A stretch of 64,000 bases of DNA from Bradyrhizobium arachidis (GTDB lineage Bacteria > Pseudomonadota > Alphaproteobacteria > Rhizobiales > Xanthobacteraceae). The stretch spans positions 4,526,001 to 4,590,000 of the forward strand of contig NZ_CP077970.1 of NCBI RefSeq assembly GCF_024758505.1, written 5' to 3'. Under the pieces are notes generated by a model that was given only the letters and a program-made list of their open reading frames with translations, was not told the origin of the DNA and searched no databases. Position numbers and translations under genes: made by a program. Positions within the stretch are counted from its first letter, which is position 1; each line of letters opens with the position of its first letter. Positions 13,011 to 40,675 of this stretch are shown piece by piece.

Positions 13011-13022
13011 AACAATCCCCGA

Positions 13023-24935: not shown

Positions 24936-26084
24936 CTACGCCCGCTGCACCCCGACCACGCGGCCTTTCTCGATCGCAAGCGCGAGTTCGCCGCGCTTGA
25001 GCTTGAGGGCGGCATCGCCGAACAGCTCGCGGCGCCAGCCACGCAGCGCGGCGACGTCGGCCTCGTCGTCGGCGGCGATGGCTTCGAGGTCGTCGACGGT
25101 TGCGATCACCTTGCTGGCGACCGCGTGGCGCTCGGCCGTCATCCGCAGCAGCACCTTCAACAGCTCGACGATCGCCTGACCGTTGGAGTTGTTGCGCGGC
25201 TTCTCCAGCTTCGGCAGCTTGGTGAGGTCGCGCGCCAGCCCGCGCTGCACGGCGGCGATGATGTCGGTGCCCCATTTGGACTTTTCAAAACCCTTCGGCA
25301 CCGAGCGCAGATGGGCGAGCTTCTCCACCGTATTGGGCGCGTGGGTGGCGATATCGCTGACAGCCTCGTCGCGCAGCACGCGGCCGCGCGGCACGTCGCG
25401 GCTCTGCGCCTCCTGTTCGCGCCAGGCCGCAACCTCCATCAGGACGGCGAGATCCTTCGGCTTGCGCACCCGCGTCTTCAGGCGTTCCCAAGCGCGCTCG
25501 GGGTGGAAGTCGTAGGTGCGGGGCGAGGTGAGGATCTCCATCTCCACGCTGACCCAGTCGCTGCGGCGACGCTTCTTCAGGTCGGCATCGAGCGCGGCGA
25601 AGACGTCGCGCAAATGGGTGACGTCGGAGACCGCGTAGTGCATCTGCTCCTTGGTCAGCGGCCGGCGCGACCAGTCGGTGAAGCGGTGGGTCTTGTCGGG
25701 GCGATGGCCCGTCACCTTCTCGACGAGCTGGTCGTAGGCGATGCTGTCGCCATAGCCGAGCACCATGGCCGCGACCTGGGTGTCGAACACCGGGTGCGGG
25801 ATGATGTTGGCCTGGTGCCAGATGATCTCGATGTCCTGGCGTGCGGCGTGGAACACCTTCAGCACGCTCTCATTGGCCATCAGCTCGAAGAACGGCTTGA
25901 GGTCGATGCCCTCGGCCAGGGTGTCGATGACCACGGCCTCCTCGGCGCTCGCCATCTGCACCACGCATAGCAGCGGGTAGTAGGTGGTCTCGCGCAGGAA
26001 CTCGGTATCGACTGTGATGACGGGGTGCTGGGCCAGCCGGCTGCAGGCAGCGGCGAGGTCAGCGGTGGTGGTAATCAGATCCAT
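24936..26084 (-). CDS. rnd: Ribonuclease D
   Basis: 382 residues. 3'-5' exoribonuclease of the DEDD superfamily, acting on tRNA precursors and other stable RNA. The catalytic residues are seen in [22 protein letters not shown] and the [13 protein letters not shown] segment; the C-terminal part carries an HRDC domain. Full length. Convergent with the aminotransferase gene. Confidence 0.94.
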
Positions 26085-26236
26085 GAACGGCCCATGACAC
26101 TTGGTATCAGCCGTTCTGCCGAAAGCGCTGATATGTCAAGGGCCTCGTAGCGAATTCGGGCCTTGCATTTCAAGTGGAATCGCAAGCAAAAGCCGGTCCC
26201 GGCGGCGGATTCCGGTGAAATTGCGCCCTCGAAATC

Positions 26237-26347
26237 CTATTCGTAACGGATCCGCCGCGACGGCTTGCGGGCGCAGGGCATCGCGACCACGACCACGCAC
26301 ATGGCGAGCATCGCCAGACCCAAGAACTCGAACACCAATATGTCCAC
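26237..26347 (-). CDS. 36-residue single-span membrane protein
   Basis: GTG start at 26347 after GGGGGAA, stop TAG at 26237-26239. The N-terminal 24 residues are strongly hydrophobic (DILVFEFLGLAMLAMCVVVV) and the tail is basic (CARKPSRRIRYE), which by the positive-inside rule suggests an N-out/C-in single helix. Starting GTG and good ribosome binding site support a real gene. It is too short for confident family assignment. Confidence 0.5.
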   Translation of the reverse strand: MDILVFEFLGLAMLAMCVVVVAMPCARKPSRRIRYE

Positions 26348-26597
26348 GGCAAATTCCCCCAAGAAACGTTGCTAAACTTGTCTGGGGCGAATTGAGGGTC
26401 TGTTAATTGTCGTGGTTACCGGCGGCGGGGCGGGCCGGATGGTGGACGGGGGGTTAACGAGGCGGGATGGATTTCCGGGGGTGCGCTGGTGGTCGATGGA
26501 AGAGAATTGACGAGGGGCGGTTTCGGTATTGCGCCACCAAAGTTTCTCGCCGGAACGGTAGTTCAGGTCGAGCGCACAGCGCTGACTCCCAAACGAA

Positions 26598-26623
26598 AAA
26601 GCCCCGGACGATGCCGGGGCTTT
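26598..26623 (-). terminator. Rho-independent terminator of the double-barrel porin gene
   Basis: Perfect stem AAAGCCCCGG/CCGGGGCTTT around a short loop. On the minus strand it is followed by TTCG after a run of T (GGGGCTTTTTCG). It lies 24 bases past the stop codon of the gene at 26647-28245. Confidence 0.85.
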
Positions 26624-26646
26624 GGATGTTCGAGGCTCAGATCGGA

Positions 26647-28245
26647 TCAGTACTTCGCGACAACCGCGCCATCCGAGTTGAAGCGGTAGACGATCGACGT
26701 GCTGATGGTCTGCACCCACGGCTTGAAGGTGACTGCGGTGCCAGTTGATGTGCCTGCACCCGTTCCGCACCCGAAGATCGACGCAGCACCCTCGGCCGTA
26801 CACGTTTGAGGCAGAGTGATACGATCATAGTAGGCCGCGCGATATTCGGTCTTCATGAACCAGCCAGGCGTCGCAAGGCCGAAGAGGCTCAGGCTGTTCT
26901 CGACGCCGCCACCGACGAACCAGCCGTCGCGACGGAATGAAGGATTTGTCGAGTACGATGTGTTTCCGACAACAACGCCGAGGATCGACAGATTGGCTCC
27001 AGACCACTCGGAGCCGGAATAGCCCGCATTGACGTAGGACAGAACGTTGGGCGCAACGAGGTAACCCAGCCGTGCGCCGGCAGCGTAGCTGGTGCGAAGC
27101 TTCTCGGTGCCTTCGGTGCCCCAGAAGGTATCGATCAGCGAGCCGCGGATGTCGCCGAATTGTCCGTCGCCAAACAGACCTGCGACCCATTTGCCGGCGA
27201 CTTGCCAGTCATAACCGGCGCCAACGGTGGCGAACCAGCCGCTTCCGCCAAAGCGCGAATTGCCCTCAATCAAGGAGCCGGCCGGGCCTGCGCCGAAGAA
27301 ACCCGGCACCGTGCTGAGGACGGTGCTGTCAGCAGCCCAGAGCCCCCCGCCGCCGCCGCCAAAGGCATAGAAGCCCGTCCAGTTCGGGCCACCAACAGCG
27401 GAAGGAGCTTTGCTGTAGATGCGCGGGGCAACATCGACAGCCGCCACGCCTTTGTCGTTGAAGCGGTAGACCAGCGATGTGCTGACTGTCTGCACCCAGG
27501 GCTTGAAGGTCATGCCGATGCCGGTCAAGCCAGTCCCGAACGCTGGCGTGAGGGTCTCTGGCAGCGCGACGCGATCATAATATGCCGATCGATATTCGGA
27601 CTTCATGAACCAGCCAGGTGCCGTGATGCCGAAGATGCTCAGGTTGTTCTCGACACCGCCGCCGACGAACCAGCCGTCACGATGAAATGAGGGCGTGGTG
27701 TCGAACGCCGCGCTTCCCGGCTGCAGCCCGATCTGGGTCGTCCCTGACCACTCGGAGCCTGTGTAGCCCGCGTTGACGTAGGACAGAACGTTCGGCGCAA
27801 CCAGATAACCCAGCCGCGCACCGGCCGCGTAGCTCGTGCGAAGCTTCTCGCTACCGTTATTGCCCCAGAAGGTATCGTTCAATGATCCGCGGATGTCTCC
27901 AAACTGTCCGTCAGCGAAGACACCGGCCACCCAGTTGCTGAACTGCCAGTCGTAGCCGGCGCCAACGGTGCCGAACCATCCGCTGCCGCCGAGGCGGCGA
28001 TCGCGGTCTCTTGGCGTGCCGGCAGGACCGGCGATCGGGCCAAAGAATCCGGAGCCGGTGCTGTAGAGTTCGCTGTCGGCGTTCCATAGGCCACCACCGC
28101 CACCGCCGAACACGTAGAAGCCAGTCCAGCTCGGCGCGGCGATTGGCGCCGGCGCTTTCACATAGGGCCGGGCGGTGAGGTCGGCCGCCGAGACTGCTCC
28201 GGTCATTGCCGTGACCGCGCCCAGAGCGAACACAAGCTTTTTCAT
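26647..28245 (-). CDS. Porin-like outer-membrane protein with two tandem barrel domains
   Basis: 532 residues, signal peptide MKKLVFALGAVTAMTGAVSA. Two copies of an Omp25/OmpW-like eight-strand barrel follow, roughly residues 30-275 and 290-532. They share the same blocks in order: NWTGFY/SWTGFY, FGGGGGGLW, GSGWF-TVGAGYDWQ, LRTSYAAGARLGYLVAPNVL, RDGWFVGGGVEN, PGWFMK-EYR, FKPWVQT-STS-VYRFN. The arrangement is an internal duplication in frame, not two genes. Single-domain relatives are abundant in Rhizobiales (recall). ATG 28245 is set by the signal peptide and the GGGGA upstream. Confidence 0.88.
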   Translation of the reverse strand: MKKLVFALGAVTAMTGAVSAADLTARPYVKAPAPIAAPSWTGFYVFGGGGGGLWNADSELYSTGSGFFGPIAGPAGTPRDRDRRLGGSGWFGTVGAGYDWQFSNWVAGVFADGQFGDIRGSLNDTFWGNNGSEKLRTSYAAGARLGYLVAPNVLSYVNAGYTGSEWSGTTQIGLQPGSAAFDTTPSFHRDGWFVGGGVENNLSIFGITAPGWFMKSEYRSAYYDRVALPETLTPAFGTGLTGIGMTFKPWVQTVSTSLVYRFNDKGVAAVDVAPRIYSKAPSAVGGPNWTGFYAFGGGGGGLWAADSTVLSTVPGFFGAGPAGSLIEGNSRFGGSGWFATVGAGYDWQVAGKWVAGLFGDGQFGDIRGSLIDTFWGTEGTEKLRTSYAAGARLGYLVAPNVLSYVNAGYSGSEWSGANLSILGVVVGNTSYSTNPSFRRDGWFVGGGVENSLSLFGLATPGWFMKTEYRAAYYDRITLPQTCTAEGAASIFGCGTGAGTSTGTAVTFKPWVQTISTSIVYRFNSDGAVVAKY

Positions 28246-28307
28246 TTCAAATCCCCAACCCCAATCTGTTTTGCAGGCTCCGCCGCGGTCGCGGCGGATC
28301 ATGCCGA

Positions 28308-28430
28308 TCCGATTCAGATGCCCCTCGTATGGTCTTGCCGAAGCGGCGCCGATGAACAGGCAAAACGACCAGCTGTCGCCCAATCGGAAAAATCAGGAAG
28401 CGAAACAGGAAAACGCGGGAAAAAGATTCC
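28308..28430 (-). promoter_or_regulatory. Recurrent leader element, copy a (porin gene)
   Basis: Contains AGCTGTCGC at 28371 and AATCGGAAAAATCAGGAAG at 28382-28400, followed by cgaaacagga and GCGGGAAAAA. It lies 63-185 bases upstream of the porin start codon. The same order of blocks is seen at 37015-37130 and, less completely, at 36485-36610 and 31485-31548. Likely 5' leader or promoter; function inferred from position only. Confidence 0.6.
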
Positions 28431-28514
28431 TGCCTCTCCACCGAGAATGGGGCCGGTGGTTACCGGCGCCGCGGTGGGCCTGATCCGTTGCGTCATGGGC
28501 TGGCCCCAGGTCCT

Positions 28515-31436
28515 TCACCAAGTGTACCGGGCGACCGCCTTGCCGACGACGGTGCGCCGGGTGGAGGAGATCTCGGAATCGACGCTGCCACCGAGCGCGA
28601 AGCCGTTGCGCCAGGCGACTTCGGCAGCACCCGTGAGCAGGGCGGCATCAGGTGCCTGGCTTGCACCGTTCACGACGAAGCCGGACTGCGGCAGCGTCTG
28701 GAAGGTCGCGAATGCGGTGCGCGCGACGTCGAAATTGTGCGCCCAGGCGCCGCGCCCGCGAAGGGTCACTACGGCATCGCCAGAGACGTAGGATCGATCC
28801 GCACGCAGGCCGAGCTCGCTGCGCGAGTCCGTGACGTCCTTGCCGCCATAGGCGAGCGCGAACGTATTCGCGCCGCTGATCGCCTGTTCGCTGAAGCCGG
28901 GCAGGAACAGTGTGGTCGCTTGTCCTGCGACATAGGGCGTCAGCGCGGCCCAGGACAGTTCGTAGCGATGGCCGGCTTCGATGCGGGCCGACAGTGCGTT
29001 GGCGGTGAAGCGGCCCTGGAGCCGGTCGACGCCGCCAATGGTCACCGTACGGTCGGTGGTGACGTCCTGCCAGCCATAGGCCAGCGCACCGGCGATATAG
29101 CTCTGGCCAAAGTTGTGGCGCGCGAAAGCGCCGGCCTGGAACAGTTCGGAGCGGCCGCCGCCGAGGCCGCTGTCGAGGTTGAAGCCGGTGCCCCCGCCGC
29201 CGAGCGCGAAGCCGACGACCGTGTCCGGCCCAATACGATAGTCCGCCCCTGCGGCGACCCCAACGGCATGGCTGTTCGTCGCGTGCGAGCCGACGACGGC
29301 GTTGCCGTCCGCATTCTGCGCACCGCCATAGCCGGCCGCCCACACATTCCACCGTGCAGCGGCACCCGCCGCGCCGAGCGGGGCCTTGCGCTCAATGGAG
29401 GCAAACGCATCGCGCGCTGTGCCTTGACGTCCCGTCATGCCTGCATCGGCATACGACAGGACGCCGCCGCCGGGTCCGGCATTGCCGAGATGGCCGAACG
29501 GATCGAGCAGCGTCGCCACGAAATTGTCCATCGCATCGAAGGAGACCTGCTGGATGCCGGTTGCATGCTCGCCGGACGCCTGCGTGAGCGCGTTGTTGAG
29601 ACTGGCGCCGCTTGCGCCGAGCAGGGCGTTGAAAGCCGCCGGCGGGTTCGCTCCGGCCGTCAGGGCATTGTCGATACCGGCTGCGACGTTGCGCTGGTTG
29701 ATGGTCGCGCCCGAGAGCGACGGCGACAACAGGCCGGGATCGAGCGTGAGCAGCACGCTGGTGCCGTTGTAGGTCAGGTGCGGATTGCGCGCGAGGCCGG
29801 TGCCGCTGAGCAGGACCGTGTCGAACGTGCCGGTCACGCCGCCTGCGCCGGTCATGATGGTATAGGTCGTCGTCGACGACACGCGGCTCAGCAGTTGCAC
29901 CGAAACGGTGCCGGCGATTTGCGCGGTGCCTGTCACTGCCGTGCTGGTCGCGCTCGACCCTGAAACTTGCACGAGATAGGTCGAGGCACTGCTCATGACG
30001 AGGCTGCCCTGGACGTTCAGCGTGCCGGTGCCATTGAAGCCGGGCGCAAGGATGCCGTCAAACATGTGGATGGTGCCGCCGACCGTGCCGTCGCCCGCCA
30101 GCGTGCCTCCGGTCTGCACCACGAAGCCCGTGGCGTTGGTGAGCGAACCGGTCACCGCCAGCGTGCCGCCATTGATGAAAACGTTGCCCGTGAAACCGCT
30201 GCTGTCCGCGGTCAACCGTGTAACGCCGGCGTCCTGGATGATCTCGCCGTTGCCCGCCAGCTGGGGGCCAAAGGCGTAGTTTGACGACGTGTGATTGAAC
30301 CGGATCGCGCCGCTTAGGGTCACCGACGGCGCGAACTGGACCAGGGAAGCATTCAGGATGCCCGGCGCCACCGCTGTCTGCCCTGAGCCAGCTCCGATGT
30401 CGATTTCTCCGAGGGTGGTGCCAGTCCCAACGTTGACGACATTGGAGGTCACCGTCACCGAACCGCCGTTTGCGATTGTTAGATAATTGAGGCCGCCGCT
30501 GCCACTAGCGCCGAGAGTAAGTGCGCCCGTCAGCAGGGACGATCCCGCGCCGCTGACGCTCAGCGAGCCGAAACCGCCGGAGTGAAAGCCGAGAATGGTG
30601 ACGCCGGCCGTCATGGTGGCGCCATTGGTGATCGAAACGCTGCCCTGCGCCTGTCCGCCGATGATCAAGGCGCCCGGCACGTTCCAACTTGAGCCGGTGC
30701 CATCGACGCTGGCCGTTCCGATTCCGATGCCACCGACAATTGCGCCGGCGTTGTTGGTGACCTGGCCGCCATTGGAAATGGTCAGGCTGCCCGTGCCTGA
30801 GGTTCCGACAAGCAGTCCGCCCGACGTCGTGAATGAGGAGCCGGAGCCACTGACCGTCAGGCTGCCGTTTGCGCTGCTCGTGAGATCGCCGAGATAGGCA
30901 TTGACGGCGCTGACGCTGCCGCCCGAGAGAACCTGAAGCGTGCCGCTGCCGGCGCGGCCGATCGAGAGATCGCCGGTGTTCGTCCATGTCGAGCCGGCGC
31001 CGGTGACCGTCACGCTGCCCGTGCTGCCGGCCTGAAAACCGAGCGCCGCAGTGGTGTCGGTCAAGGTGCCGCCATTGCTGATCATGAGCTGACCAGTGCC
31101 TGCGGCACCGATGAAGGTCGACAATGCGTGCGCTGCGCCTCCGCTGATGACAGCCGGGTTGGGCGAGGTCTGGTCGACGGTCACCGTGTCGGTGGCGTTT
31201 GGCACCGCTGCCGGATTCCAGTTGCCGGCGGTGAACCAGTCGGACGAGGCCGCACCCGTCCAGATCGGATTTGCACCCATCGCGGGTTGAATGGAGAGGA
31301 CGGCGGGCAGCGCCGTCGATGCCAGCAGCAGTCGAAGCAAACACGCGAGCGAGCCCCTCATCCGCAGCGGATCGTGCGATCTGGCAATGAAGGGAGAGGA
31401 AGGATGGGCCGGCTGTCGCGCGCATCTTGAGGTCAT
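28515..31436 (-). CDS. Autotransporter with T5SS/PEP-CTERM-type repeats (first)
   Basis: 973 residues. A long N-terminal signal region ends around residue 55 (…IQPAMGA). The passenger has about a dozen imperfect repeats of the GSGTLQVLSGGSVS / STGSVTVTGAGSTWTNTGDL type, the T5SS/PEP-CTERM-associated repeat; then one autotransporter beta-strand repeat (FINGGTLAVTGSLTN). The C-terminal 270 residues form the beta-barrel, ending AVARYTW. A secreted or surface-displayed beta-helix is expected. ATG 31436 has GGAAG upstream; GTG 31451 in frame is also possible. Confidence 0.9.
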   Translation of the reverse strand: MTSRCARQPAHPSSPFIARSHDPLRMRGSLACLLRLLLASTALPAVLSIQPAMGANPIWTGAASSDWFTAGNWNPAAVPNATDTVTVDQTSPNPAVISGGAAHALSTFIGAAGTGQLMISNGGTLTDTTAALGFQAGSTGSVTVTGAGSTWTNTGDLSIGRAGSGTLQVLSGGSVSAVNAYLGDLTSSANGSLTVSGSGSSFTTSGGLLVGTSGTGSLTISNGGQVTNNAGAIVGGIGIGTASVDGTGSSWNVPGALIIGGQAQGSVSITNGATMTAGVTILGFHSGGFGSLSVSGAGSSLLTGALTLGASGSGGLNYLTIANGGSVTVTSNVVNVGTGTTLGEIDIGAGSGQTAVAPGILNASLVQFAPSVTLSGAIRFNHTSSNYAFGPQLAGNGEIIQDAGVTRLTADSSGFTGNVFINGGTLAVTGSLTNATGFVVQTGGTLAGDGTVGGTIHMFDGILAPGFNGTGTLNVQGSLVMSSASTYLVQVSGSSATSTAVTGTAQIAGTVSVQLLSRVSSTTTYTIMTGAGGVTGTFDTVLLSGTGLARNPHLTYNGTSVLLTLDPGLLSPSLSGATINQRNVAAGIDNALTAGANPPAAFNALLGASGASLNNALTQASGEHATGIQQVSFDAMDNFVATLLDPFGHLGNAGPGGGVLSYADAGMTGRQGTARDAFASIERKAPLGAAGAAARWNVWAAGYGGAQNADGNAVVGSHATNSHAVGVAAGADYRIGPDTVVGFALGGGGTGFNLDSGLGGGRSELFQAGAFARHNFGQSYIAGALAYGWQDVTTDRTVTIGGVDRLQGRFTANALSARIEAGHRYELSWAALTPYVAGQATTLFLPGFSEQAISGANTFALAYGGKDVTDSRSELGLRADRSYVSGDAVVTLRGRGAWAHNFDVARTAFATFQTLPQSGFVVNGASQAPDAALLTGAAEVAWRNGFALGGSVDSEISSTRRTVVGKAVARYTW

Positions 31437-31484
31437 CTGCACTTCCGTCACTCAATTCCTGCAGGCGCGGTCGAAGCCTGCTTC

Positions 31485-31548
31485 ATGTCTGTTTGGCGGA
31501 AGGAGAAATGAGTTCTCACGAAATCGGAAATGACGACAAATGAAATCG
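31485..31548 (-). promoter_or_regulatory. Recurrent leader element, copy b (first autotransporter)
   Basis: Contains TTTGGCGGAAGGAG and then AAATCGGAAATGACGACAAA. It lies about 50-110 bases upstream of the autotransporter start. The match to the other copies is shorter: the GGAAGTGAAACAGGAAAT part is only partly kept. Confidence 0.5.
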
Positions 31549-31875
31549 GCGGCCACCGCTGGGACGCTGAAGAGTACGACCGCTGCTGCGGCGTCAAACC
31601 ATCCATGCCTCATATCGAGTCGATCTCCCAAAACCGTTTACCTGCCGCAAATTGATAGCGGCCCGCCTCAGCAAGCGCTTTGACTGGCCGGAACTGATGT
31701 TCCACGGCAAGCAAGCGGACGTCGTGTGCGTGGCAACTGTTGCAATAGGGTCACACGAAAATGCCCAGCGGAGATTTTCGTCCAGCGGAGATTTTCGTTT
31801 CGACGCCTTCTACGCTGACCCGGGCTGCCGGTTCGGCGCAGAAGCTGCGCCTTCCAACAAACTGAAGCCGTCGGA
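31549..31875. repeat. Gene-free stretch with a 17-bp direct repeat
   Basis: No convincing gene. Positions 31766-31782 and 31783-31799 are near-identical 17-base copies (CAGCGGAGATTTTCGTC then CAGCGGAGATTTTCGTT). Part of the flanking sequence resembles a mobile-element end, but I cannot identify one. An in-frame run on the plus strand through here has no recognisable product. Confidence 0.45.
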
Positions 31876-32916
31876 CTATTCGCCGCGCCGTCTTTTCGCG
31901 TCTTTGCGGATGTCCGACGGTGTCGCGGCGTAGCGCCGGCGGAAGCAGCGATTAAAGTAAGATTGGTCGCTGAAGCCGGCCTCGAACGCGATTTCGCCCA
32001 CCGGACGATCAAAATGGCGTCGATCTGTCAGCAATTGGTGTGCTAGTGCCAGCCGCTGTGCGAGCACGAATTCGGAAAAACTCGAGCCATCGGTTTCAAG
32101 CAGGCTGCGTACGTAGCGAGGCGAAATCCCTTGGCGCGCCGCGACAAGCTCCGCCGAAAGATCGCGTTGCACGAGATTGCGGGCGATGTCTGCTTTGATC
32201 GCGTGCAGCCTTGCGGCACGAACGCCGCGCTCGCGAGCAAGAGCAACAGCGTCGGGCGTCCCTCCCGCAGCGACGATGACAAGATCGGTCAAGTGCGTGG
32301 CGACGCTCTGCGCCAACTGTTCGGTCGACAAGGCCGACGCGTCCTGCAGCACGGCCAAATAGCCGGACAATAGTTGTATTGCGTCGGTGGGCTCTATCAA
32401 GGGTCGGGCAAGTGCAGCGTCGAGATCGGCAATATGGGGCCTTATACGCTCGCGCGACACTGCAAGCGTCAGGAATTGGCCGCCATTCCGGATCGTGCAA
32501 ACGCTCGGGTCAATGCCGGAGACCAGAACCGCGCTACCAGCAGCAATAGTGACCTCGCGTCCGAACTGCGCAATTGTGCCAACCCCTCCTGTCACGATGG
32601 AGAACAAGAAATTGTCGGGTGCTCCGGCGGCGATTTTGCGAGTCATCCGGTAACTCGCATCGGATCGTGAACCACAAGCGACGCCAAGACCCGGCAGTCG
32701 GCGAAGCGTCACGTCTGCATGAAACGGCGCGTCATTGAGCGGTTCGATCTCAAAACGGGCGACGGTATGGCCGTAAACCTCGCGCCACATTGCCAGCCGC
32801 TTTTCGACCGGGAATGCGTCCGTGGTCACATGCACGGGAGCGAATGGTGAGGCCGAAGCCTGAGAAGTCAGGTATGGAGCCGAGGAATTCGTTCGACGGG
32901 AAGGACTGTCGGGCAT
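31876..32916 (-). CDS. AraC-family regulator upstream of the first autotransporter
   Basis: 346 residues. C-terminal AraC/XylS domain with two helix-turn-helix units: RDLSAELVAARQGISPRYVRSL and VGEIAFEAGFSDQSYFNRCFRR. The N-terminal domain (about residues 35-230) resembles the AraC-binding-like sensor group (the 'cupin 2' type). It lies immediately upstream (on the minus strand) of the first autotransporter, with leader copy b between them. It may activate the autotransporter, by position. Protein sequence is unlike the two AraC proteins at 37-39 kb. Confidence 0.85.
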   Translation of the reverse strand: MPDSPSRRTNSSAPYLTSQASASPFAPVHVTTDAFPVEKRLAMWREVYGHTVARFEIEPLNDAPFHADVTLRRLPGLGVACGSRSDASYRMTRKIAAGAPDNFLFSIVTGGVGTIAQFGREVTIAAGSAVLVSGIDPSVCTIRNGGQFLTLAVSRERIRPHIADLDAALARPLIEPTDAIQLLSGYLAVLQDASALSTEQLAQSVATHLTDLVIVAAGGTPDAVALARERGVRAARLHAIKADIARNLVQRDLSAELVAARQGISPRYVRSLLETDGSSFSEFVLAQRLALAHQLLTDRRHFDRPVGEIAFEAGFSDQSYFNRCFRRRYAATPSDIRKDAKRRRGE

Positions 32917-33112
32917 CGATATGTTGTGCCGATCGGGCTAAAAGCGGTTCAAAACTGCCGGCGATTTCCGCTCTCTAACCCCCTTCCTGTCGTCTGGTCT
33001 AGACGTGATCCGGTGGCAGATCTCTCTTGGACCTCGATTTGGGCAGGAAATCCTCGCTGCCGTGTCTGTTCGAGCCTTGCATTCGGGCGGAATCGCCCGG
33101 GTGGCACGCGAG

Positions 33113-36100
33113 TCACCACTGGTACCGGACGACTCCCTTGCCGGCATAGGACCGGGTCACCTCGGAAAACTCGCCCTCGAAAGTTGCGGCGGCCGACCAA
33201 CCATTCAGCCACTTCTTCTCAGCCGATGCCGTGACCAGCGCCGCGTCTGCGGCCTGTGCCGCCCCGTTCACGACGAAGCTTGCACCGGGAAGGGCCTGGA
33301 ATGTTGCCGCCACAGAGCGGTCCGGATTGAAGTCGTGCGCCCAGGCGAAGCGGCCGCGCAATGTGAGGACACCGTCCTGGGCGACAAACGACTTGTCCGT
33401 GCGCACGCCAAGCTCGGCACGGGCATCCGTGACGCTCTTCGCCGAATAGGTGAGGGCGGAGGTGCCGGTTCCGGCCAGGACAGTTTCGGCATAGCCGGGC
33501 AGGTCGAACATCGTGACCTGAGCCGCTGCATAGGGCGTGATACCGATGCCATCCGTCCATGGGGCGATCACGCGATAGCCACCTTCAATGCGCCCCGAAT
33601 AGGCATTGGCTTTGAAGTTGGCGTGCAGGCGGTCCACGCCTGCGATGGTCACGGTGCGATCGGTGGTGACGTCCTGCCAGCCATAGGCGAGCGCTGCGGA
33701 GACGTAGGCCGGTCCGTTGTTGTGACGCAGATAGGCGCCGGCCTGGAATAGATCCGAGCGACCATTGCCCGAGCCGGTCACGGCAAAGTTCGTTCCGCCG
33801 CCGGCGAGCGCGAAGCCGGCGAGGGTATTCGGCGAGAACAGATAATCAGCGCCGACCGCGCCGCCGAAGATCCGGCTGGTGCTGTCGTTGGAGCCTATGC
33901 CGGCTCGGCCGTCCGTCGACTGCACACCGCCGAACGCCGAGGCCCAGGTGCTCCAGCGCTGCTCGAACAGGGCGCGCGAAGTCGGATTCAGGGCCATGGT
34001 AAAGGCATCGGTGGTCCGCCGCTTTGCCGCTTCGCCTGTCTCTTCGGCAAATCCGGTGGGTCCTGGCGTGACCGTGGTGCCGCCACCGCGCGTGACCGGA
34101 TCGGTCAGCAGGCCGAGGAACAAGCCCATCGCATTGAATGTGCTTTGCTGAGAGCCTGTGGCGACCTCGCCGGACAGTTGCGTCAGTCCGGCCGGCGTCA
34201 ACGCACCGAATGCGACCGGCACGCTGCCGCCCGCGTTGAAGAAGTTGGTGATTGCGCTCGCGACGTTCTGCTGGTTGACGTTCAGTCCCGACGAGGAGGG
34301 CAGCGCGAAGTTCAGGGTCAGATCGAGATAGGCGTTGGTCGCGTCATAGCCGAGGCTGCTGGAAAAGCCTGACGGCAGGTTCGTATTGACCAATGTCGCG
34401 AAGCTGCCGCTGACGCCGTTCGTGGCGTGGACGATGGTGTACTGCTTCGTGACGTAGGAGCCTTGCCCGAAAACCGCATTCACGGTGGCGCCACCGAGAG
34501 TCGCGGTGCCTGTGACATCGGTGCGACTTGCACTCGTGGGCGAGACCTGGACGAGATAAGTCGCGGCCGCCGTGAGCGTGAGATTGCCCTGCACGGTCAG
34601 CGTGCCGATCGAATTGCCCGGCGCCAGCGTGCCGCTGGTGACCGTCGTATCTCCGACGGTGCCGGCACCGCCCAGCGTACCGCCGTTGACCGTCATCGTG
34701 CCGCCCAGCGTTCCGTTCACCAGCAGCGTGCCGCCCGTCACGTTGGTCGTTCCGGTGAAGCCGGACGAATTGCCCGTCAGGTTGGTCACGCCGCCGGCTT
34801 GCTGGATGACACCGCTGCCGCTGATCGCGGGGCTGAAGACGTAGTTCGTGCTCGTGTGGTTGAGGTCGATCTCCGCGGTCCCAGCTCCCATGGTGATCGA
34901 CGCCGCATTGATCGTCCCGGGCGCCAGCCCGGGGAGACCCGCGGTGTTGCCGACGACGAACGTACCGGAAGAGCCGGAGTCCCGGGCCAGGGTGATGTTG
35001 CCCGAACCACCGTTGACTGTGACCGTGCTGCCCGACGAGACTGCAAGAAGGCCAGAGCCGCTCGCGCCGACGATCAAGCTTTGAGTGGCCAACGTGGACC
35101 CCGCGGCGAGGGCTACCGTCCCGGTGGAGCCGGCCAGGGAGCCGACGACCGTTCCGAAGGATGAGCCGACTGTAACGCTCGCGCCGCTGCCGTAGATGAC
35201 CATGATGCCATTGCCGCCATCGCCGACAATGAGACCATTATTGATCTGGGCGCTCGATCCGGATCCGCCGACAAGAAGGCTGTTGGGAGCTGAATTACCC
35301 GCCTGAACACCGATGGCAATCGAGTCGCTGGTCAAGGCGCCTCCGCTGAGCACCCTGACGGCGCCTTGACCGAAGTAGCCGATATTCAAGGTACCGGTGT
35401 TGACCCATGTCGAACCAGCGTCGCTGATCTGAATAACACCCGAAGAGCCGGAGCCATCTCCGACGTATCCCGTCAAGCTTTGAACGTGAGCGCCATTGAG
35501 AAGCGAAAGATTTCCTGCGCCCGCTACGCCAATCCTGACGACATTGCTCCCCAGAAACGATCCAGCGCCATCTACGCTAACGGCGCCGTTGCTGCCATTT
35601 TGGTCGCCGACGAGAATGGCGTTCGTCGCGGTGACAACGCCTCCGGATTGGATGACCAGCGACCCCTGGCCTGAATATCCGACGTAGAGACTCAAGCCGT
35701 TGGTCCAATGTCCGGTGGTGTCGACGGTCACTGTACCGCTAGCTCCGGCGCTAGAGCCAAGAATCCCGTTGGCGCTTGTGACGGTGGAGTGCCCACCAAT
35801 GATCAAGCTGCCGTTGCCGCCGTAACCGACCTCGAGATTGCCGCTATTGGCCCAGGTGCTGCCTGTATCGACGACGACGGTGCCAACGCTTCCAGCCTGT
35901 CGACCGATTGTGCCGCTTAGGGAACCGACTGCCCCCCCATTCGTGACAGACAGATAACCGGTCCCTTGGCCGCCGATACTGAGATTGTCCAGGGTCCAAA
36001 GCCCGGAAACGTTGACGGTTCCGGTGGAGCCGATCGTCGTGCCGATCCATCCATCGCCCGAAGAGCTCAATACAGCAGAGCTGCCGCTGATCTGCAACTG

Positions 36101-36406
36101 GCCTCCGGCACTTGTGGCGCCAATGTCGATGTCTGCCGAAAATGCGCCTACGCTGGTGATCTGTGCAGGCTTCGACGAACCGGCATCGATGATCACCGGA
36201 TCCGATGACGTTGGCACCGAACCCAAGCTCCAGTTGAAGAGGTTGAACCAACTGGCATTGACAGCTCCGGTCCAGTTGTCGTCGGCGCGTGCGCGCGAAG
36301 CATCCACCAATGTGGTTGTTCCCAGGAGGGCGGCTACAAAATATCGAGCCGCGGGAAGAGATGTGCGTCGACGTTGGTTGCGCCGGTCTGCGTCCGAAAA
36401 TTTCAT
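33113..36406 (-). CDS. Autotransporter with T5SS/PEP-CTERM-type repeats (second)
   Basis: 1097 residues. The signal peptide ends near residue 40 (…DASRARA). The passenger has many imperfect repeats (GSTGTVNVSG..., GYLSVTNGGAVGSLSGTIGR), then beta-strand repeats with TNVTGGTLLVNGTLGG. The C-terminal ~275 residues are a barrel ending VVRYQW. Its barrel and passenger resemble those of the first autotransporter, with matching blocks such as GGAVGADYLFSPNTLAGFAL. ATG 36406 follows GGAAGGGGCGTG. A stem-loop (CGGGCG-GAAT-CGCCCG) lies at 33084-33099, past the stop. Confidence 0.9.
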   Translation of the reverse strand: MKFSDADRRNQRRRTSLPAARYFVAALLGTTTLVDASRARADDNWTGAVNASWFNLFNWSLGSVPTSSDPVIIDAGSSKPAQITSVGAFSADIDIGATSAGGQLQISGSSAVLSSSGDGWIGTTIGSTGTVNVSGLWTLDNLSIGGQGTGYLSVTNGGAVGSLSGTIGRQAGSVGTVVVDTGSTWANSGNLEVGYGGNGSLIIGGHSTVTSANGILGSSAGASGTVTVDTTGHWTNGLSLYVGYSGQGSLVIQSGGVVTATNAILVGDQNGSNGAVSVDGAGSFLGSNVVRIGVAGAGNLSLLNGAHVQSLTGYVGDGSGSSGVIQISDAGSTWVNTGTLNIGYFGQGAVRVLSGGALTSDSIAIGVQAGNSAPNSLLVGGSGSSAQINNGLIVGDGGNGIMVIYGSGASVTVGSSFGTVVGSLAGSTGTVALAAGSTLATQSLIVGASGSGLLAVSSGSTVTVNGGSGNITLARDSGSSGTFVVGNTAGLPGLAPGTINAASITMGAGTAEIDLNHTSTNYVFSPAISGSGVIQQAGGVTNLTGNSSGFTGTTNVTGGTLLVNGTLGGTMTVNGGTLGGAGTVGDTTVTSGTLAPGNSIGTLTVQGNLTLTAAATYLVQVSPTSASRTDVTGTATLGGATVNAVFGQGSYVTKQYTIVHATNGVSGSFATLVNTNLPSGFSSSLGYDATNAYLDLTLNFALPSSSGLNVNQQNVASAITNFFNAGGSVPVAFGALTPAGLTQLSGEVATGSQQSTFNAMGLFLGLLTDPVTRGGGTTVTPGPTGFAEETGEAAKRRTTDAFTMALNPTSRALFEQRWSTWASAFGGVQSTDGRAGIGSNDSTSRIFGGAVGADYLFSPNTLAGFALAGGGTNFAVTGSGNGRSDLFQAGAYLRHNNGPAYVSAALAYGWQDVTTDRTVTIAGVDRLHANFKANAYSGRIEGGYRVIAPWTDGIGITPYAAAQVTMFDLPGYAETVLAGTGTSALTYSAKSVTDARAELGVRTDKSFVAQDGVLTLRGRFAWAHDFNPDRSVAATFQALPGASFVVNGAAQAADAALVTASAEKKWLNGWSAAATFEGEFSEVTRSYAGKGVVRYQW

Positions 36407-36484
36407 CACGCCCCTTCCAAAAGGCTCTCTCATCATTGGAGGCGGTGCGGATTGCGCTCGCGCGAGCCCGCAGCCTGTCTCATC

Positions 36485-36610
36485 CTTGTTTGGCGGAGAC
36501 TGCGCGGAAAGGACAGGTCGCGTAACGACTTGCCGCGAAATCGGAAATGACGGGAAGTGAAACAGGAAATTGGAGGAAGAAGAGAGCGCCTGATTTCTCA
36601 CCGAAGAGGA
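36485..36610 (-). promoter_or_regulatory. Recurrent leader element, copy c (second autotransporter)
   Basis: Contains TTTGGCGGAGAC, GCGAAATCGGAAATGACGGG and AAGTGAAACAGGAAATTGG, then gaagagagcg. It sits about 80-200 bases upstream of the second autotransporter start. It matches copy d block for block. Confidence 0.6.
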
Positions 36611-36733
36611 GAGAGAAGAATCACGTCCGCATTTCCTGCGAATATCGGCTCCTCCGCGCGTGGCGCTCCAGCACGACTTCGTGGCGCTTCAGGCATCACC
36701 CTTCGTCGGGCCGCGGCGAGGTTCCCCAGCCCG

Positions 36734-36783
36734 TCACGTCATGCGCCTGATCCAGTGCGCCCACTCCGCAAGGCTCTTGTCCG
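36734..36783 (-). pseudogene. AraC C-terminal fragment
   Basis: On the minus strand this reads KSLAEWAHWIRRMT then stop, the same ending as the intact AraC at 37270-38382 (NLAEWAHWIRRMT). Identity continues past the stop into the 3' flank (36690-36733 versus 37226-37269). Everything upstream of these residues has been replaced by an autotransporter fragment. Confidence 0.75.
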
Positions 36784-36945
36784 AGGTTGACGACCAGCAG
36801 CGTGCCGCCCGTGACGCTGGTCGTGCCGGAAAGGCCCGAGGAATTGATTGAAATCGATCTCTGCGGCACCGCACCCAGGGTGATGGAAGCCGCAGAGATC
36901 GTTCCAGGCGCCGACGCGGGGCTGGCTACGTCGTTGCCGATGAAA
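36784..36945 (-). pseudogene. Decayed autotransporter passenger fragment
   Basis: Translated on the minus strand, APGTISAASITLGA and then SSGLSGTTSVTGGTLLV match the second autotransporter's APGTINAASITMGA and NSSGFTGTTNVTGGTLLV. The part between them is mostly deleted and the frame shifts around the AEID segment. Both ends of the gene are gone. It is joined to the AraC tail and preceded by leader copy d. Confidence 0.75.
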
Positions 36946-37014
36946 GCTTCAGATCATAAAAAATGGCGAGATGGCCGGCTCGCCCCGATCCGATTCCAAT
37001 GCCGGTCTCATGGT

Positions 37015-37130
37015 TTTGGCGGAGGCAGCGCAGAAAGAACAGATCGAGCGACGAGCTGTCGCGAAAATCGGAAATGACAGGAAGTGAAACAGGAAATCGC
37101 GGGAAAAAGAGAGCGGGCCCATTCACCGAA
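37015..37130 (-). promoter_or_regulatory. Recurrent leader element, copy d (orphan)
   Basis: Contains GACGAGCTGTCGCG, AAATCGGAAATGACAGGAAG at 37066-37085, then TGAAACAGGAAATCGCGGG. Similarity to copy a continues to about 36990 (GATCCGATTC...). It has no intact gene; the downstream target is the autotransporter scar at 36784-36945. Confidence 0.6.
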
Positions 37131-37269
37131 CGTCGGCGGAGAATCATGCGCGGCATGACCGCCGCAGAAATCAGTTATTCAACGTATGGTGCTGCAAACA
37201 TGATCACGTCGGTTTATGTCGCCTCAAGCGTCATGCTTCGTTGCTCAGTTGCAAAGTTCGAGCGCCCGC

Positions 37270-38382
37270 TCACGTCATGCGCCTGATCCAGTGCGCCCAC
37301 TCTGCGAGGTTATCGTCGGATGCCGACGACAAGGCGTTGCCTTCCAGCCCGTGCGCGCGCAACTCGCGCGGTGTGAGACCAAACTGCCGCTGAAAGGCGA
37401 GCGCAAAGCTGCGATAATGGCCAAATCCATGCGCTTCAGCGATCGTCTCGATCGACTGCTCCCTGTGTGCCGGGTGGACCAAGGCTGAGCGGATCAGAGA
37501 CAGCCGCCTTCGTCGTATGTAGGCGGCAACACCGCCATGGGACTCGAAGAGATAAGCGAGATTGCGCCGTGTCATCCCAAAGCGACCGGCAATGGTTTCC
37601 GGATCCAGGTCCGGATCACGGATATTGGCATTGATGTACGAACAGATCCGCTCGGTCATGGCTATGCGCACGGGCCCAGCCTGTTCGTCCTGAACCTTGC
37701 CATTGAGCGCTGCTGTGGTCAGTTGCACGGTGGCGTGTATGATCGCTTGAGCCTGGTCGAGCGACATCTTGGGCAGACGCGCTTGAAGGCCAATGAGGTG
37801 ATCCCGGAGGAGCGCGGCAAGCGGATCGCTCGACGGCAGCAGATGCAGGTTGTGCTCGTCCGGTGCCGCGAGATGCGGGCCGAGCAGATTTCGCGGCAAG
37901 AACAGCGTGAGCGCCTGATTGTCGCCGCCACGTCTGTCCGTCGGTTGGGACATGTCATAAACCAGGATGTCGTTGGCATGAACCGCCGCGCCTCCGTCCC
38001 GCGGGCCGCTCCAGCCCTTGCGTAGGATCTGCACCATGAACAGATCCACTCCATCGCGTCCGATACATGCGCGGGAACGACTCCAATCCTGGGCGGGCAC
38101 CCGAAAATCGCCGATCAGAACATTGCCGACATGCCAAACGTCCGCTCGCACGTCGAAGGTCTGCGGATAGTCTTTCGGCGCGCGCACGTCGTAGAAGAGG
38201 CCTGCATGCTCCCGCCAGAGGGTGAACGCCTGTTTTCCGGGGAGACCGCGGGTGTCGAGGACTGAATGGGGTATGCCGCCGTCCAAGTGCTCTGTCATGC
38301 CTGAACTGATTTCCCACCTGCCGCGATCAGTTGGTATCTTTCCAATCGAGCGAGGTTCGGGCGGCAGCGGTTCGGTCGCCAA
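37270..38382 (-). CDS. AraC-family regulator, tandem copy 1
   Basis: 370 residues. C-terminal AraC domain: LDPETIAGRFGMTRRNLAYLFE and QSIETIAEAHGFGHYRSFALAF helices, ending NLAEWAHWIRRMT. The N-terminal domain (residues ~30-240) is of the AraC-binding-like type. It is a close paralogue of the next gene; together they form a tandem pair. TTG start at 38382, one base after the stop of copy 2; ATG at 38298 is an alternative. It directly precedes leader copy d and the autotransporter scar. Confidence 0.87.
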   Translation of the reverse strand: MATEPLPPEPRSIGKIPTDRGRWEISSGMTEHLDGGIPHSVLDTRGLPGKQAFTLWREHAGLFYDVRAPKDYPQTFDVRADVWHVGNVLIGDFRVPAQDWSRSRACIGRDGVDLFMVQILRKGWSGPRDGGAAVHANDILVYDMSQPTDRRGGDNQALTLFLPRNLLGPHLAAPDEHNLHLLPSSDPLAALLRDHLIGLQARLPKMSLDQAQAIIHATVQLTTAALNGKVQDEQAGPVRIAMTERICSYINANIRDPDLDPETIAGRFGMTRRNLAYLFESHGGVAAYIRRRRLSLIRSALVHPAHREQSIETIAEAHGFGHYRSFALAFQRQFGLTPRELRAHGLEGNALSSASDDNLAEWAHWIRRMT

Positions 38383-38383
38383 C

Positions 38384-39463
38384 TCACTTCAAGCCCCCGA
38401 TCCAGTGCGCCCAATCCGCCAGCCTGCCGTCGGACACCGAGGGCATGATGTGGCCCTCGTGCGCCAATGCACGCACCTCGCGTGGTGTGAGACCGAACTG
38501 CCGCAGAAAGGCGAGTGCAAAGCTGCGATAGTGACCAAATCCATGCGCTTCGGCGATCGTCTCGATCGACTGTCGGTTGCGTGCCGGATCGGTTAGAGCC
38601 GTGTGGATCAAGGACAGGCGTTTTCGTCGGACATAGGCGGCAACGCCGCCGTAGGATTCGAAGAGATATCCGAGATTGCGCCGGGTCATTCCAAATCGGC
38701 CGGCGATGGTTTCCGGATTGAGGTTCGGATCGAGGATGTGCGCGTTGATGTACGTGCGGATCCGATCGGTCATGGCCATGCGTACGCTGCCAGCCTGTTG
38801 TTCGCGAACGGTGCCGTTCAATGCAGCCGCGGTCAGTTGCACGGTGGCGGGCATGACGGCTTGAGCTTGATCCAGCGGCATTTCGGTCAGATGCGCGCGA
38901 AGGCTGAGGAGGTGATCCCGGAGCAGGCCGGCGAGCGGGTCGCTTGATGGCAGCAGGTGCAGACAATGCTCGTCTGGCGCCTTGAGGTGAGGCGCGAGCT
39001 GATTGCGCGGCAGGAACAGGGTGAGCGCCTCGTTGTCGCCCCCTCGGCTGGCTGAAGGCTGCGCCATGTCGTAAATCATGATGTCACCGGCGCGAGCCGT
39101 CGCCCCGCTGTCGCGCGAGCCGCTCGAACCTTTGCGAAGGATCTCCAGCATGTACACGTCCGTCCCATCGCGGCCGATACGCGCGCGCGAGCGGCTGTAA
39201 TCCTGGGCAGGCACCTGAAACTCGGCCATCAGAACGTTGCCAAGATGCCAACAATCCACACGTACTTCGAAGCTTTGCGCGTATTCTTTGTGCGCGCGCA
39301 GGTCGAAGTACACGCCCCCGTGCTCCTGCCAGAACTCGAATCCCTGCTTTCCCGGGAGACCGTGCGTGTCGAGGACCGAATGGGGGATGTCGTTCACTGG
39401 GTGCTCTGTTATGCCTGAACGAATTTCCAACCTTGCCGCGTGACCACTTAGTGACTTTGCCAT
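38384..39463 (-). CDS. AraC-family regulator, tandem copy 2
   Basis: 359 residues, closely similar to copy 1 along the whole length (shared blocks: IPHSVLDT-GLPGKQ, GNVL-F-VPAQD-SRSRA-IGRDG, RNLxYLFES-GGVAAY). The AraC helices are LNPETIAGRFGMTRRNLGYLFE and NRQSIETIAEAHGFGHYRSFAL. ATG 39463 is chosen; an in-frame extension to 39556 is also open. It is first in the tandem, probably co-transcribed with copy 1 (1-base gap). Confidence 0.87.
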   Translation of the reverse strand: MAKSLSGHAARLEIRSGITEHPVNDIPHSVLDTHGLPGKQGFEFWQEHGGVYFDLRAHKEYAQSFEVRVDCWHLGNVLMAEFQVPAQDYSRSRARIGRDGTDVYMLEILRKGSSGSRDSGATARAGDIMIYDMAQPSASRGGDNEALTLFLPRNQLAPHLKAPDEHCLHLLPSSDPLAGLLRDHLLSLRAHLTEMPLDQAQAVMPATVQLTAAALNGTVREQQAGSVRMAMTDRIRTYINAHILDPNLNPETIAGRFGMTRRNLGYLFESYGGVAAYVRRKRLSLIHTALTDPARNRQSIETIAEAHGFGHYRSFALAFLRQFGLTPREVRALAHEGHIMPSVSDGRLADWAHWIGGLK

Positions 39464-39702
39464 TGAAGCTGGTTCGAGCGCGGCAAGGCTGCGATTAACA
39501 CGATATCGGCCAATGTGAGCCGCAATAATAGGAAAGGAATCTACGAGAAGCGGCAATGGAAGTTTTGGGAAATAGCATCCGGTCAGGCCCGCAACTCGTG
39601 GTCAGTTCTTGGGCGTCAGCCCTTGGGCGGCAAGCGGGCGCTTGCCCGATCTGATACAAGGGCTTGCAGGGGATTCTTGAGGCAAATGCTGAAGGACAAT
39701 TG

Positions 39703-40554
39703 GTGAGCATTCTTCTCTGGGCATGGCAAGGCGTGGTCGGGCAGCTCAGCACGTCGCTGGCCTGGCAGAGCTTTGCCGCGCTGATGGTGCTGTTCCTGGT
39801 GCTCGTCGCTATCGAGTGGAAGTTGGAGGGCCACCTGTCGCGCTACCTTGAGGCGTCCTTCCTCACCGACATCGTCTACACCGTCCTGATCATCGGCGGC
39901 GTCTACGCCTGGATCCAGCAGCCGGTCGTCAGCTTTCTCGATCAGGCGCTGCGGCAGCACACGCCGTTCCTCTATATGGACCTGCTGCGCCGTCTGCCGG
40001 AGCCGATCCAGCTCGCGCTCTTCCTGCTGGCGGTCGATTTCTGCCGCTACTGGAAGCACCGCGCGCTGCATGTCGTGCCGGGCTTGCGCGAGGTCCACAG
40101 CATCCACCATTCCGCTGAAAACCTGAACTTCCTCACGGCATTCCGCGTCCATCTGCTCGAATATGTCATCGACGGCGTGATCACGCTGCTGCCGGCGGTG
40201 CTGCTGGGCCTGCCGCCCGAGATGTGGCTGCCGCTCTATCTGAGCTTCATCCTGCTCAACGCCATTCAGCACTCCGACCTCGATCTCAGCTTCGGCCGGC
40301 TCAACCGGATCTTTGTGTCGCCGCGCTTCCATGCCGTCCACCATTCGGACCGGCGCAGCCACTATGACAGCAATTTTGGCGCGCTGTTCAGCTTCTGGGA
40401 CGTGCTGTTCGGCACGGCGATCTTTGCCGCAGGACGGCCGGCCCGCTACGGGCTGCCAAAGCTCAACATCCCCGGCTCGTTCATCGGCCAGCTCATCTTT
40501 CCCGTGAGTTCGGTGCTGCGGCGGGCGCTGCGCGCACGATCCGGCAGTGCGTAG
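39703..40554 (+). CDS. Sterol desaturase/fatty acid hydroxylase family membrane protein
   Basis: 283 residues. The di-iron His clusters of the family are present: HRALH, HSIHHS and HAVHHS, in the order and spacing typical of the fatty acid hydroxylase superfamily. Four hydrophobic stretches cover the N-terminal two thirds. It uses oxygen to hydroxylate a lipid or similar substrate, which cannot be named. GTG 39703 follows AAGGACA; a TTG at 39664 in frame is the alternative. Divergent from the AraC pair, 239 bases apart. Confidence 0.85.
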   Translation: MSILLWAWQGVVGQLSTSLAWQSFAALMVLFLVLVAIEWKLEGHLSRYLEASFLTDIVYTVLIIGGVYAWIQQPVVSFLDQALRQHTPFLYMDLLRRLPEPIQLALFLLAVDFCRYWKHRALHVVPGLREVHSIHHSAENLNFLTAFRVHLLEYVIDGVITLLPAVLLGLPPEMWLPLYLSFILLNAIQHSDLDLSFGRLNRIFVSPRFHAVHHSDRRSHYDSNFGALFSFWDVLFGTAIFAAGRPARYGLPKLNIPGSFIGQLIFPVSSVLRRALRARSGSA

Positions 40555-40667
40555 GGTGAGTTTGCTCCGCGGCTGCGCGAAGCGCAGTCCGCTGGGCGTA
40601 ACCCACCAACGCTTGTGCAACACGAAGCCGAGGTGGTGGATTACGCCTTCGGCTAATCCACCCTACG
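40551..40667. repeat. REP-like palindromes between sterol-desaturase and ugpB genes
   Basis: Two units. The first, 40551-40613, runs from GTAGGGTGAG to GTAACCCACC. The second, 40635-40662, is the palindrome GGTGGATTACGCC / GGCTAATCCACC, which recurs near the transposase gene at 44997, 45604 and 46026. Confidence 0.75.
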
Positions 40668-40675
40668 AAGCTGCA

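Follow-up and report, generated by a model that had tools for sequence, protein, structure and literature searches.

What ties a cluster of outer-surface genes to the regulators that lie among them? The question is raised by a locus of Bradyrhizobium arachidis found in a 64,000-nucleotide stretch of DNA, hereafter the window (RefSeq assembly GCF_024758505.1, contig NZ_CP077970.1, positions 4,526,001 to 4,590,000 of the forward strand; features are given in window coordinates). Along the minus strand, the order of transcription is araC1, araC2, a scar, the autotransporter gene AT2, araC3, a second autotransporter gene, AT1, and OMP, which encodes an outer-membrane beta-barrel-like protein. A first-pass annotation had noticed similar leaders before the surface genes and had proposed a regulator-plus-adhesin unit that has multiplied. 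Here we trace the leader similarity to a 36-bp element with four TTCC boxes, which we hold with high confidence to be an operator paired with the regulator clade of AraC1 and AraC2 (AraC1/2). We infer a small, rearranging local regulon of a familiar type, whose regulator-operator pair would be new.

A 36-bp element in the leaders of the locus

By BLAST, the leader before the scar matches that of OMP (74% over 154 bp, E 3e-22) and that of AT2 (71% over 203 bp, E 8e-25), and the OMP and AT2 leaders match each other at 69% (E 9e-7). A similar leader had been claimed for every surface gene, and for these three the relationship is indeed beyond chance; the AT1 leader, however, is broken. Only a 39-bp match remains there (31507..31545, minus strand); in the aligned register 7 of the 16 box bases deviate, and both the distal half-site and a CTGT element found downstream of the other copies are lost.

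The element was defined by aligning the window leaders with three leaders of the relatives G017 and G007. Four TTCC words stand in the core of six of the seven aligned leaders, the window AT1 being the exception. The element reads TTCC-N6-TTCC-N8-TTCC-N6-TTCC and spans 36 bp, with a box spacing of 10, 12 and 10 bases, and so consists of two direct 14-bp half-sites (TTCC-N6-TTCC) lying 22 bp apart. As a sequence pattern, this matches the layout of AraC/XylS-type operators, in which direct half-sites follow each other in tandem at about two helical turns and the two boxes within each are separated by one turn. Such a layout is expected when each AraC/XylS monomer places its two helix-turn-helix motifs in adjacent major grooves.

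Exact copies, all on the minus strand, precede OMP (28386..28421, CTGT at 28356-28359), AT2 (36543..36578, CTGT at 36513-36516) and the decayed unit of the scar (37070..37105, CTGT at 37039-37042, at a downstream offset of 27 bp, not 26). They are the only three in the 9.43-Mb genome, in which the reversed pattern does not occur at all. With one mismatch there is a single further copy (39536..39571, minus strand, 15 of 16 box bases), 72 bp ahead of the araC1 start codon ATG and predicted to be autoregulatory; it played no part in defining the pattern, lies outside the range covered by the first-pass annotation and had been overlooked there. We rejected the idea that the leader is a genome-wide repeat: its own genome gives three strong matches, all at the locus, and four short weak ones (E 0.24-0.84).

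Across 203 kb of 11 loci, 21 exact sites occur at the 10-12-10 spacing, versus one in total at 149 other spacings. Our full collection holds 26 sites (22 exact, three with one mismatch and one with two). Box positions carry 1.76-2.0 bits of information and linker positions 0.3-1.4, apart from one linker position at 1.76, in a count that excludes the two-mismatch araC site of G128 and is partly circular. CTGT starts exactly 26 bp past the last box in 19 of 21 tested sites; in the scar the offset is 27, and no CTGT follows the araC1 site. The other five sites, all before araC, were left out of this test and read by eye. At this offset CTGT is common to the surface-gene sites and to those of an AraC3-like gene and a single araC copy, and it is possibly a core promoter. 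Downstream of the sites before the first araC of arrays, the sequence differs from that of the surface-gene sites. Because these first-araC sites share the boxes but not the downstream leader, boxes and spacing are what otherwise different promoters have in common.

The element and AraC1/2-type regulators occur in the same genomes

Among 265 Bradyrhizobium genomes, the exact pattern occurs at 18 sites in seven (reversed control, 0), and the same seven carry an AraC2-type regulator at 66-75% identity, the next best match being 41%. Six of these sites, in the window genome (G000), G017 and G007, defined the pattern; the 12 in G128, G161, G168 and G169 did not. Per genome, the seven hold one to four AraC1/2-type genes and one to six exact operators. 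The pattern is also present in 4 of 146 Mesorhizobium genomes (reversed control, 0), each with the regulator at 59-64% identity, and ten other Mesorhizobium genomes have homologues at 34-44% without the exact pattern. Combined, 11 of 411 genomes carry both the regulator (at least 59%) and the exact pattern, 400 carry neither, and none carries just one. The co-regulation suspected earlier is thus supported by a candidate operator whose presence tracks the regulator in both genera.

A peptide-pattern scan of a public collection with one genome per species returned nine loci, from B. iriomotense NBRC 102520, B. liaoningense SZCCT0420, Bradyrhizobium strains Ec3.3, AS23.2 and NAS80.1, and Mesorhizobium strains ORS 3428, ORS3324, CA14 and B4-1-3. 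All four Mesorhizobium loci, picked by protein alone, hold the exact pattern adjoining the regulator. In each genome (4/4) that site is the sole copy, even allowing one mismatch, and three of the four loci contain a perfect 14-bp direct repeat (two distinct sequences). A family-wide draw of 391 genomes over 47 genera yielded the pattern in three, all of them Bradyrhizobium and already counted. At the order level, 397 genomes were searched for the regulator, and the pattern was sought within about 4 kb around regulator matches. Twenty distant AraC loci held no four-box site at up to one mismatch, and two of them (L121 and L079) gave a two-mismatch match. The distant locus L119 shows a 14-bp direct repeat.

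In a tree of 12 close Bradyrhizobium regulators, the four from Mesorhizobium and six more distant ones, the 16 motif-associated regulators split from the other six with branch support of 100/100, at a point where the tool warns that long branches meet. All four Mesorhizobium proteins preserve the stretches TRRNL..LFE and HYRSF(A/S)LA of the recognition helices, which are different in the relatives examined at 33-44% identity. Since the recognition helices of AraC1 and AraC2 are almost alike, both probably read all operator copies; with AraC3 belonging to another subfamily, the earlier notion that each AraC serves its own leader does not appear to be the best reading. Among 11 of the 12 close regulators (alignment A1, which leaves out one of the four from G161), mean pairwise identity is 70% in the sensor part and 80% in the DNA-binding part. 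Because the sensor parts diverge faster, different cues could feed one switch.

Eight Mesorhizobium AraC homologues at 42-44% identity (L133-L140) have different recognition helices. In two distant loci, L081 and L082 (genomes G141 and G264), AraC2-type and AraC3-type genes stand side by side, in G264 with an autotransporter nearby; given this adjacency, the pairing of the two AraC types may be old.

Different surface-protein genes follow the element

Classical autotransporters lie behind the element in G000, G007, G017, G128 and G161, and the two-copy OMP in G000, G017, G128 and G161. YadA-type trimeric autotransporters follow it in G161 (one-mismatch site), G168, G169 and two Mesorhizobium. 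YadA_head is above cut-off in G168 and G161 and YadA_anchor in the two Mesorhizobium; YadA_anchor stays below cut-off in the two Bradyrhizobium proteins, and G169 was assigned by its 94% identity to G168. In two Mesorhizobium, OmpA-domain proteins stand behind the element, followed at L104 by a PAN-domain gene and a below-cut-off SH3 match. The first araC of the array likewise has a site ahead of it in G007 (before araC3-araC), G161, G168 (exact), G169 (one mismatch) and G128 (two mismatches), and in G017 no site within one mismatch was found there.

Multiplication, recombination and decay at one chromosomal site

The block sits between an RNase D gene and a sugar ABC-transporter gene in G000, G007, G017, G161, G168 and G169; the G128 stretch stops about 100 bases before the contig end, and RNase D is not reached. 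In this genus, the arrangement occupies one chromosomal site wherever both flanks are visible.

Between araC2 and the AT2 unit (37269-36640, minus strand), blastn and translation reveal the remains of a further AraC-leader-autotransporter unit. Besides its operator, this scar holds fragments within 36682..36943 (minus strand): two autotransporter passenger pieces at about 36793-36943, 73% and 85% identical to AT2 DNA, and a second AraC C-terminal tail at about 36682-36797 (75%). An autotransporter scar after the AraC tandem had been proposed, and these parts bear it out.

In G007 the order is araC3-araC-operator-AT1. The AraC3 and AT1 of the window are 93% and 94% identical to their G007 copies; in the window the middle araC is missing, and the AT1 operator is without its distal half and CTGT. 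In G161 there are four genes of the AraC1/2 type, and of its six exact sites one is a stray autotransporter leader on another contig. This stray copy (L098:7857-7892, contig C76) comprises an exact operator and the first bases of an AT1-like gene beside other genes, and is apparently a translocated promoter fragment. An autotransporter of G161 is a hybrid, with 56-91% identity per block to AT1 over the first ~475 positions and 69-94% to AT2 thereafter, the alternative parent giving 31-61% per block. Taken together, units at a single chromosomal site have undergone duplication, deletion and recombination, and the proposed multiplied regulator-plus-adhesin unit is borne out by regulator and operator numbers, scars and hybrid alike.

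A predicted AraC regulon and its alternatives

These data are best read as a case of conditional surface display under an AraC-type regulator that often controls its own gene and acts through a portable, local operator. AraC1 and AraC2 would bind the 36-bp operator, presumably as dimers, with one TTCC box for each helix-turn-helix of a monomer. A putative ligand at the AraC_binding_2 domain would switch on both the surface proteins and, by feedback, the regulators themselves. Operator copies and the downstream CTGT, as a putative promoter, would drive AT2, OMP and formerly the dead autotransporter, and the diverged copy before araC1 would mediate the feedback; activation is most likely, rather than repression. 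The unit would multiply, recombine and decay at one site, so that species would differ in the surface protein behind a common switch. Conditional display, raised in the first-pass annotation, is suggested by the regulator family. No support turned up for phase switching, although no search was aimed at an invertible segment, slippage tract or recombinase.

Several points weigh against this reading. High box conservation is partly a matter of construction, because the box pattern, or proximity to it, was the means by which 21 of the 26 sites were collected. The co-occurrence counts are not independent, since the eleven genomes share ancestry for the locus, and in the tree the four regulators from Mesorhizobium fall into two close pairs. 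Autoregulation is not universal, given the two mismatches in G128 and the lack of a site within one mismatch in G017. CTGT is not a recognisable -10 box, and no other promoter consensus was seen behind the sites. The AT1 operator is lost in the window strain. Finally, the surface-gene leaders are largely paralogous, so that part of their similarity is descent, and two copies without a working gene retain all boxes: the scar and the stray L098 copy. The latter lacks an autotransporter yet is intact, with CTGT at 26, which runs counter to simple decay.

These last facts, together with evident duplication with scars and a leader alignment that runs past the operator bounds (about 110-200 bp), are what would be expected if the leaders were alike merely through DNA co-duplicated before surface genes and the boxes had no function. 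We nevertheless consider such passive paralogy improbable. A single spacing recurs, the first-araC sites agree in boxes and spacing without having the downstream leader in common, and the Mesorhizobium loci, picked by protein at 59-62% regulator identity, keep 16 of 16 box bases where the rest of the leader has diverged. Moreover, the degenerate site is that of AT1, whose neighbouring AraC2-type gene is missing here and present in G007. It is less probable still that AraC3, rather than AraC1/2, reads the operator. AraC3 does adjoin AT1, and G007 has a site ahead of araC3, as G161 has ahead of an AraC3-like gene, but G017, G168 and G169 carry operators with no AraC3 match in their fetched stretches (the stretches alone were searched), two Mesorhizobium loci give no AraC3 match and the other two only the AraC1/2-type gene at 23%. 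The regulator type present in every case is AraC1/2.

The element could also belong to another regulator, such as a PhoB/OmpR-type response regulator. The pho box consists of CTGTCAT repeats every 11 bp, OmpR/PhoB proteins also use direct repeats near one helical turn, and some copies of the element do hold CTGTTTC...CTGTCAT words. The two words are offset by 12 bp instead of 11, and the OMP and Mesorhizobium copies, which keep TTCC, do not have them; on this spacing and loss of words, reading the 26 sites ruled out a pho box. A global regulator's site should be widespread, yet 400 of 411 genomes are without the exact pattern, whose presence follows one AraC clade, and we judge this option very unlikely. 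An RNA element in the 5' untranslated region, a riboswitch or thermometer, seems least credible of all. The leader is conserved before start codons, and RNAalifold proposes a 6-pair stem in which three pairs show two-sided change, but the consensus energy is just -2.14 kcal/mol and no Rfam family reaches its gathering threshold in 26000-40700. The best-conserved part consists of direct, not inverted, repeats, and the araC copies are without the downstream part.

The predicted AraC regulon may also have a wider role, which we propose tentatively and regard as rather unlikely: an adhesin-diversification array. Here any outer-membrane gene landing behind a plug-in operator would become part of one signal-gated surface coat. 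Regulators that are paralogues, nearly identical in their DNA-reading helices but with faster-diverging sensors, would compete for operators and pass several signals to one coat, and recombination between tandem units would yield hybrid autotransporters. If plant signals were the inducers, the array would be a host-range module of rhizobia.

Relation to known systems

The likeness to XylS at Pm and to MekR, activators of the AraC/XylS family, lies in operator layout. As given in an excerpt of PMC4514859, the sites TGCA-N6-GGNTA-N6-TGCA-N6-GGNTA of XylS and CACC-N5-CTTCAA-N6-CACC-N5-CTTCAA of MekR likewise repeat a half-site directly in tandem, and within each half-site about one helical turn separates the two boxes. 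Here, by comparison, the four TTCC boxes are identical, the half-sites lie 22 bp apart and the targets are outer-surface proteins. VirF, Rns and RegA are AraC-family regulators of surface structures, and AggR-type sites are A+T-rich. AggR is also an AraC-type regulator of adhesive surface structures, with binding sites at AggR-dependent promoters, fimbrial ones included, in the portion of PMC6392122 available. In contrast to AggR-type systems, the present locus pairs TTCC half-sites and has multiplied the regulator itself; across species, four unrelated families of surface proteins share the one operator.

The top NCBIfam match of AraC2 is FeaR (NF007243, E 4e-29, residues 72-316), also of the AraC family; identity as FeaR was rejected at 102 bits against a cut-off of 199. 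None of the 21 NCBIfam matches of AraC2 reaches its curated cut-off, TIGR04094 (YSIRK-adjacent) scoring 19 of 200 bits. In open-licence literature, titles and the beginnings of abstracts gave no description of an AraC1/2-clade regulator or its operator. From sequence alone, the AraC1/2 clade gains a precise, testable candidate operator and regulon, probably with autoregulation, and type Va and type Vc autotransporters and other rhizobial outer-membrane proteins are tied to one predicted switch.

What turns on rhizobial autotransporters is a live question, because one of them reportedly determines nitrogen fixation on Lotus with APN1 (Shimoda et al. 2020, as cited in an excerpt of PMC12237847). 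That protein, as far as the excerpt describes it, likewise comes from a root-nodule bacterium and is likened to those studied here by type, not by sequence. We know of no link between it and an AraC1/2 regulator. Intact and broken operator copies in related strains offer natural controls.

Genes of the locus and its surroundings

Three AraC regulators, two autotransporters and OMP had been read on the minus strand, and this gene content stands: all six reading frames are open, and Pfam supports the regulators and autotransporters. HTH_18 and AraC_binding_2 are above cut-off in the products of araC1 (38384..39463, 359 aa, ATG at 39463), araC2 (37270..38298, 342 aa, starting with ATG) and araC3 (31876..32916, 346 aa). 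The regulators had been taken for multiplied copies, which holds for AraC1 and AraC2 (70% identical); AraC3, at 24-26% to these two, belongs to another AraC subfamily and is no copy of the AraC1/2 type.

AT2 (33113..36406, 1097 aa) and AT1 (28515..31436, 973 aa) encode classical autotransporters with TIGR04393 type V secretion system repeats (NCBIfam) and a C-terminal PF03797 barrel (Pfam; 157.0 and 143.9 bits, respectively), 43% identical across about their last 900 residues. OMP (26647..28245, 532 aa), read earlier as a putative double-barrel porin-like gene, is built of two tandem copies, its halves being 64% identical over 258 residues, and is without a Pfam match. Its homologues number 339 at E <= 0.001 among 7998 scored candidates, several labelled outer membrane protein by their source; among the 120 listed, most are about two copies long and some are named Bradyrhizobium or Afipia, and alignment A2 joins the window OMP with 39 of these 120. 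At the window locus, the promoter alone seems special for OMP.

A fatty-acid-hydroxylase-family gene (39664-40554, plus strand) lies between araC1 and the ABC-transporter gene, and its DNA is unmatched in the stretches of six relatives. Two more autotransporter barrels are encoded in the window, at 19128-19859 and 58337-59095 (both plus strand); genome-wide, PF03797 gives 21 matches at E <= 0.001, the exact operators being confined to the locus described. In both genera, the trimeric autotransporter is followed by a protein of ~230 aa that looks secreted by eye (L075:10105-10797, L076:10606-11328, L106:3326-4015 and L107 at about 12966-13388). Three of these proteins were scanned and had no Pfam match. 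Its Mesorhizobium matches cover part of the protein at 62-68%, and it is possibly an accessory factor.

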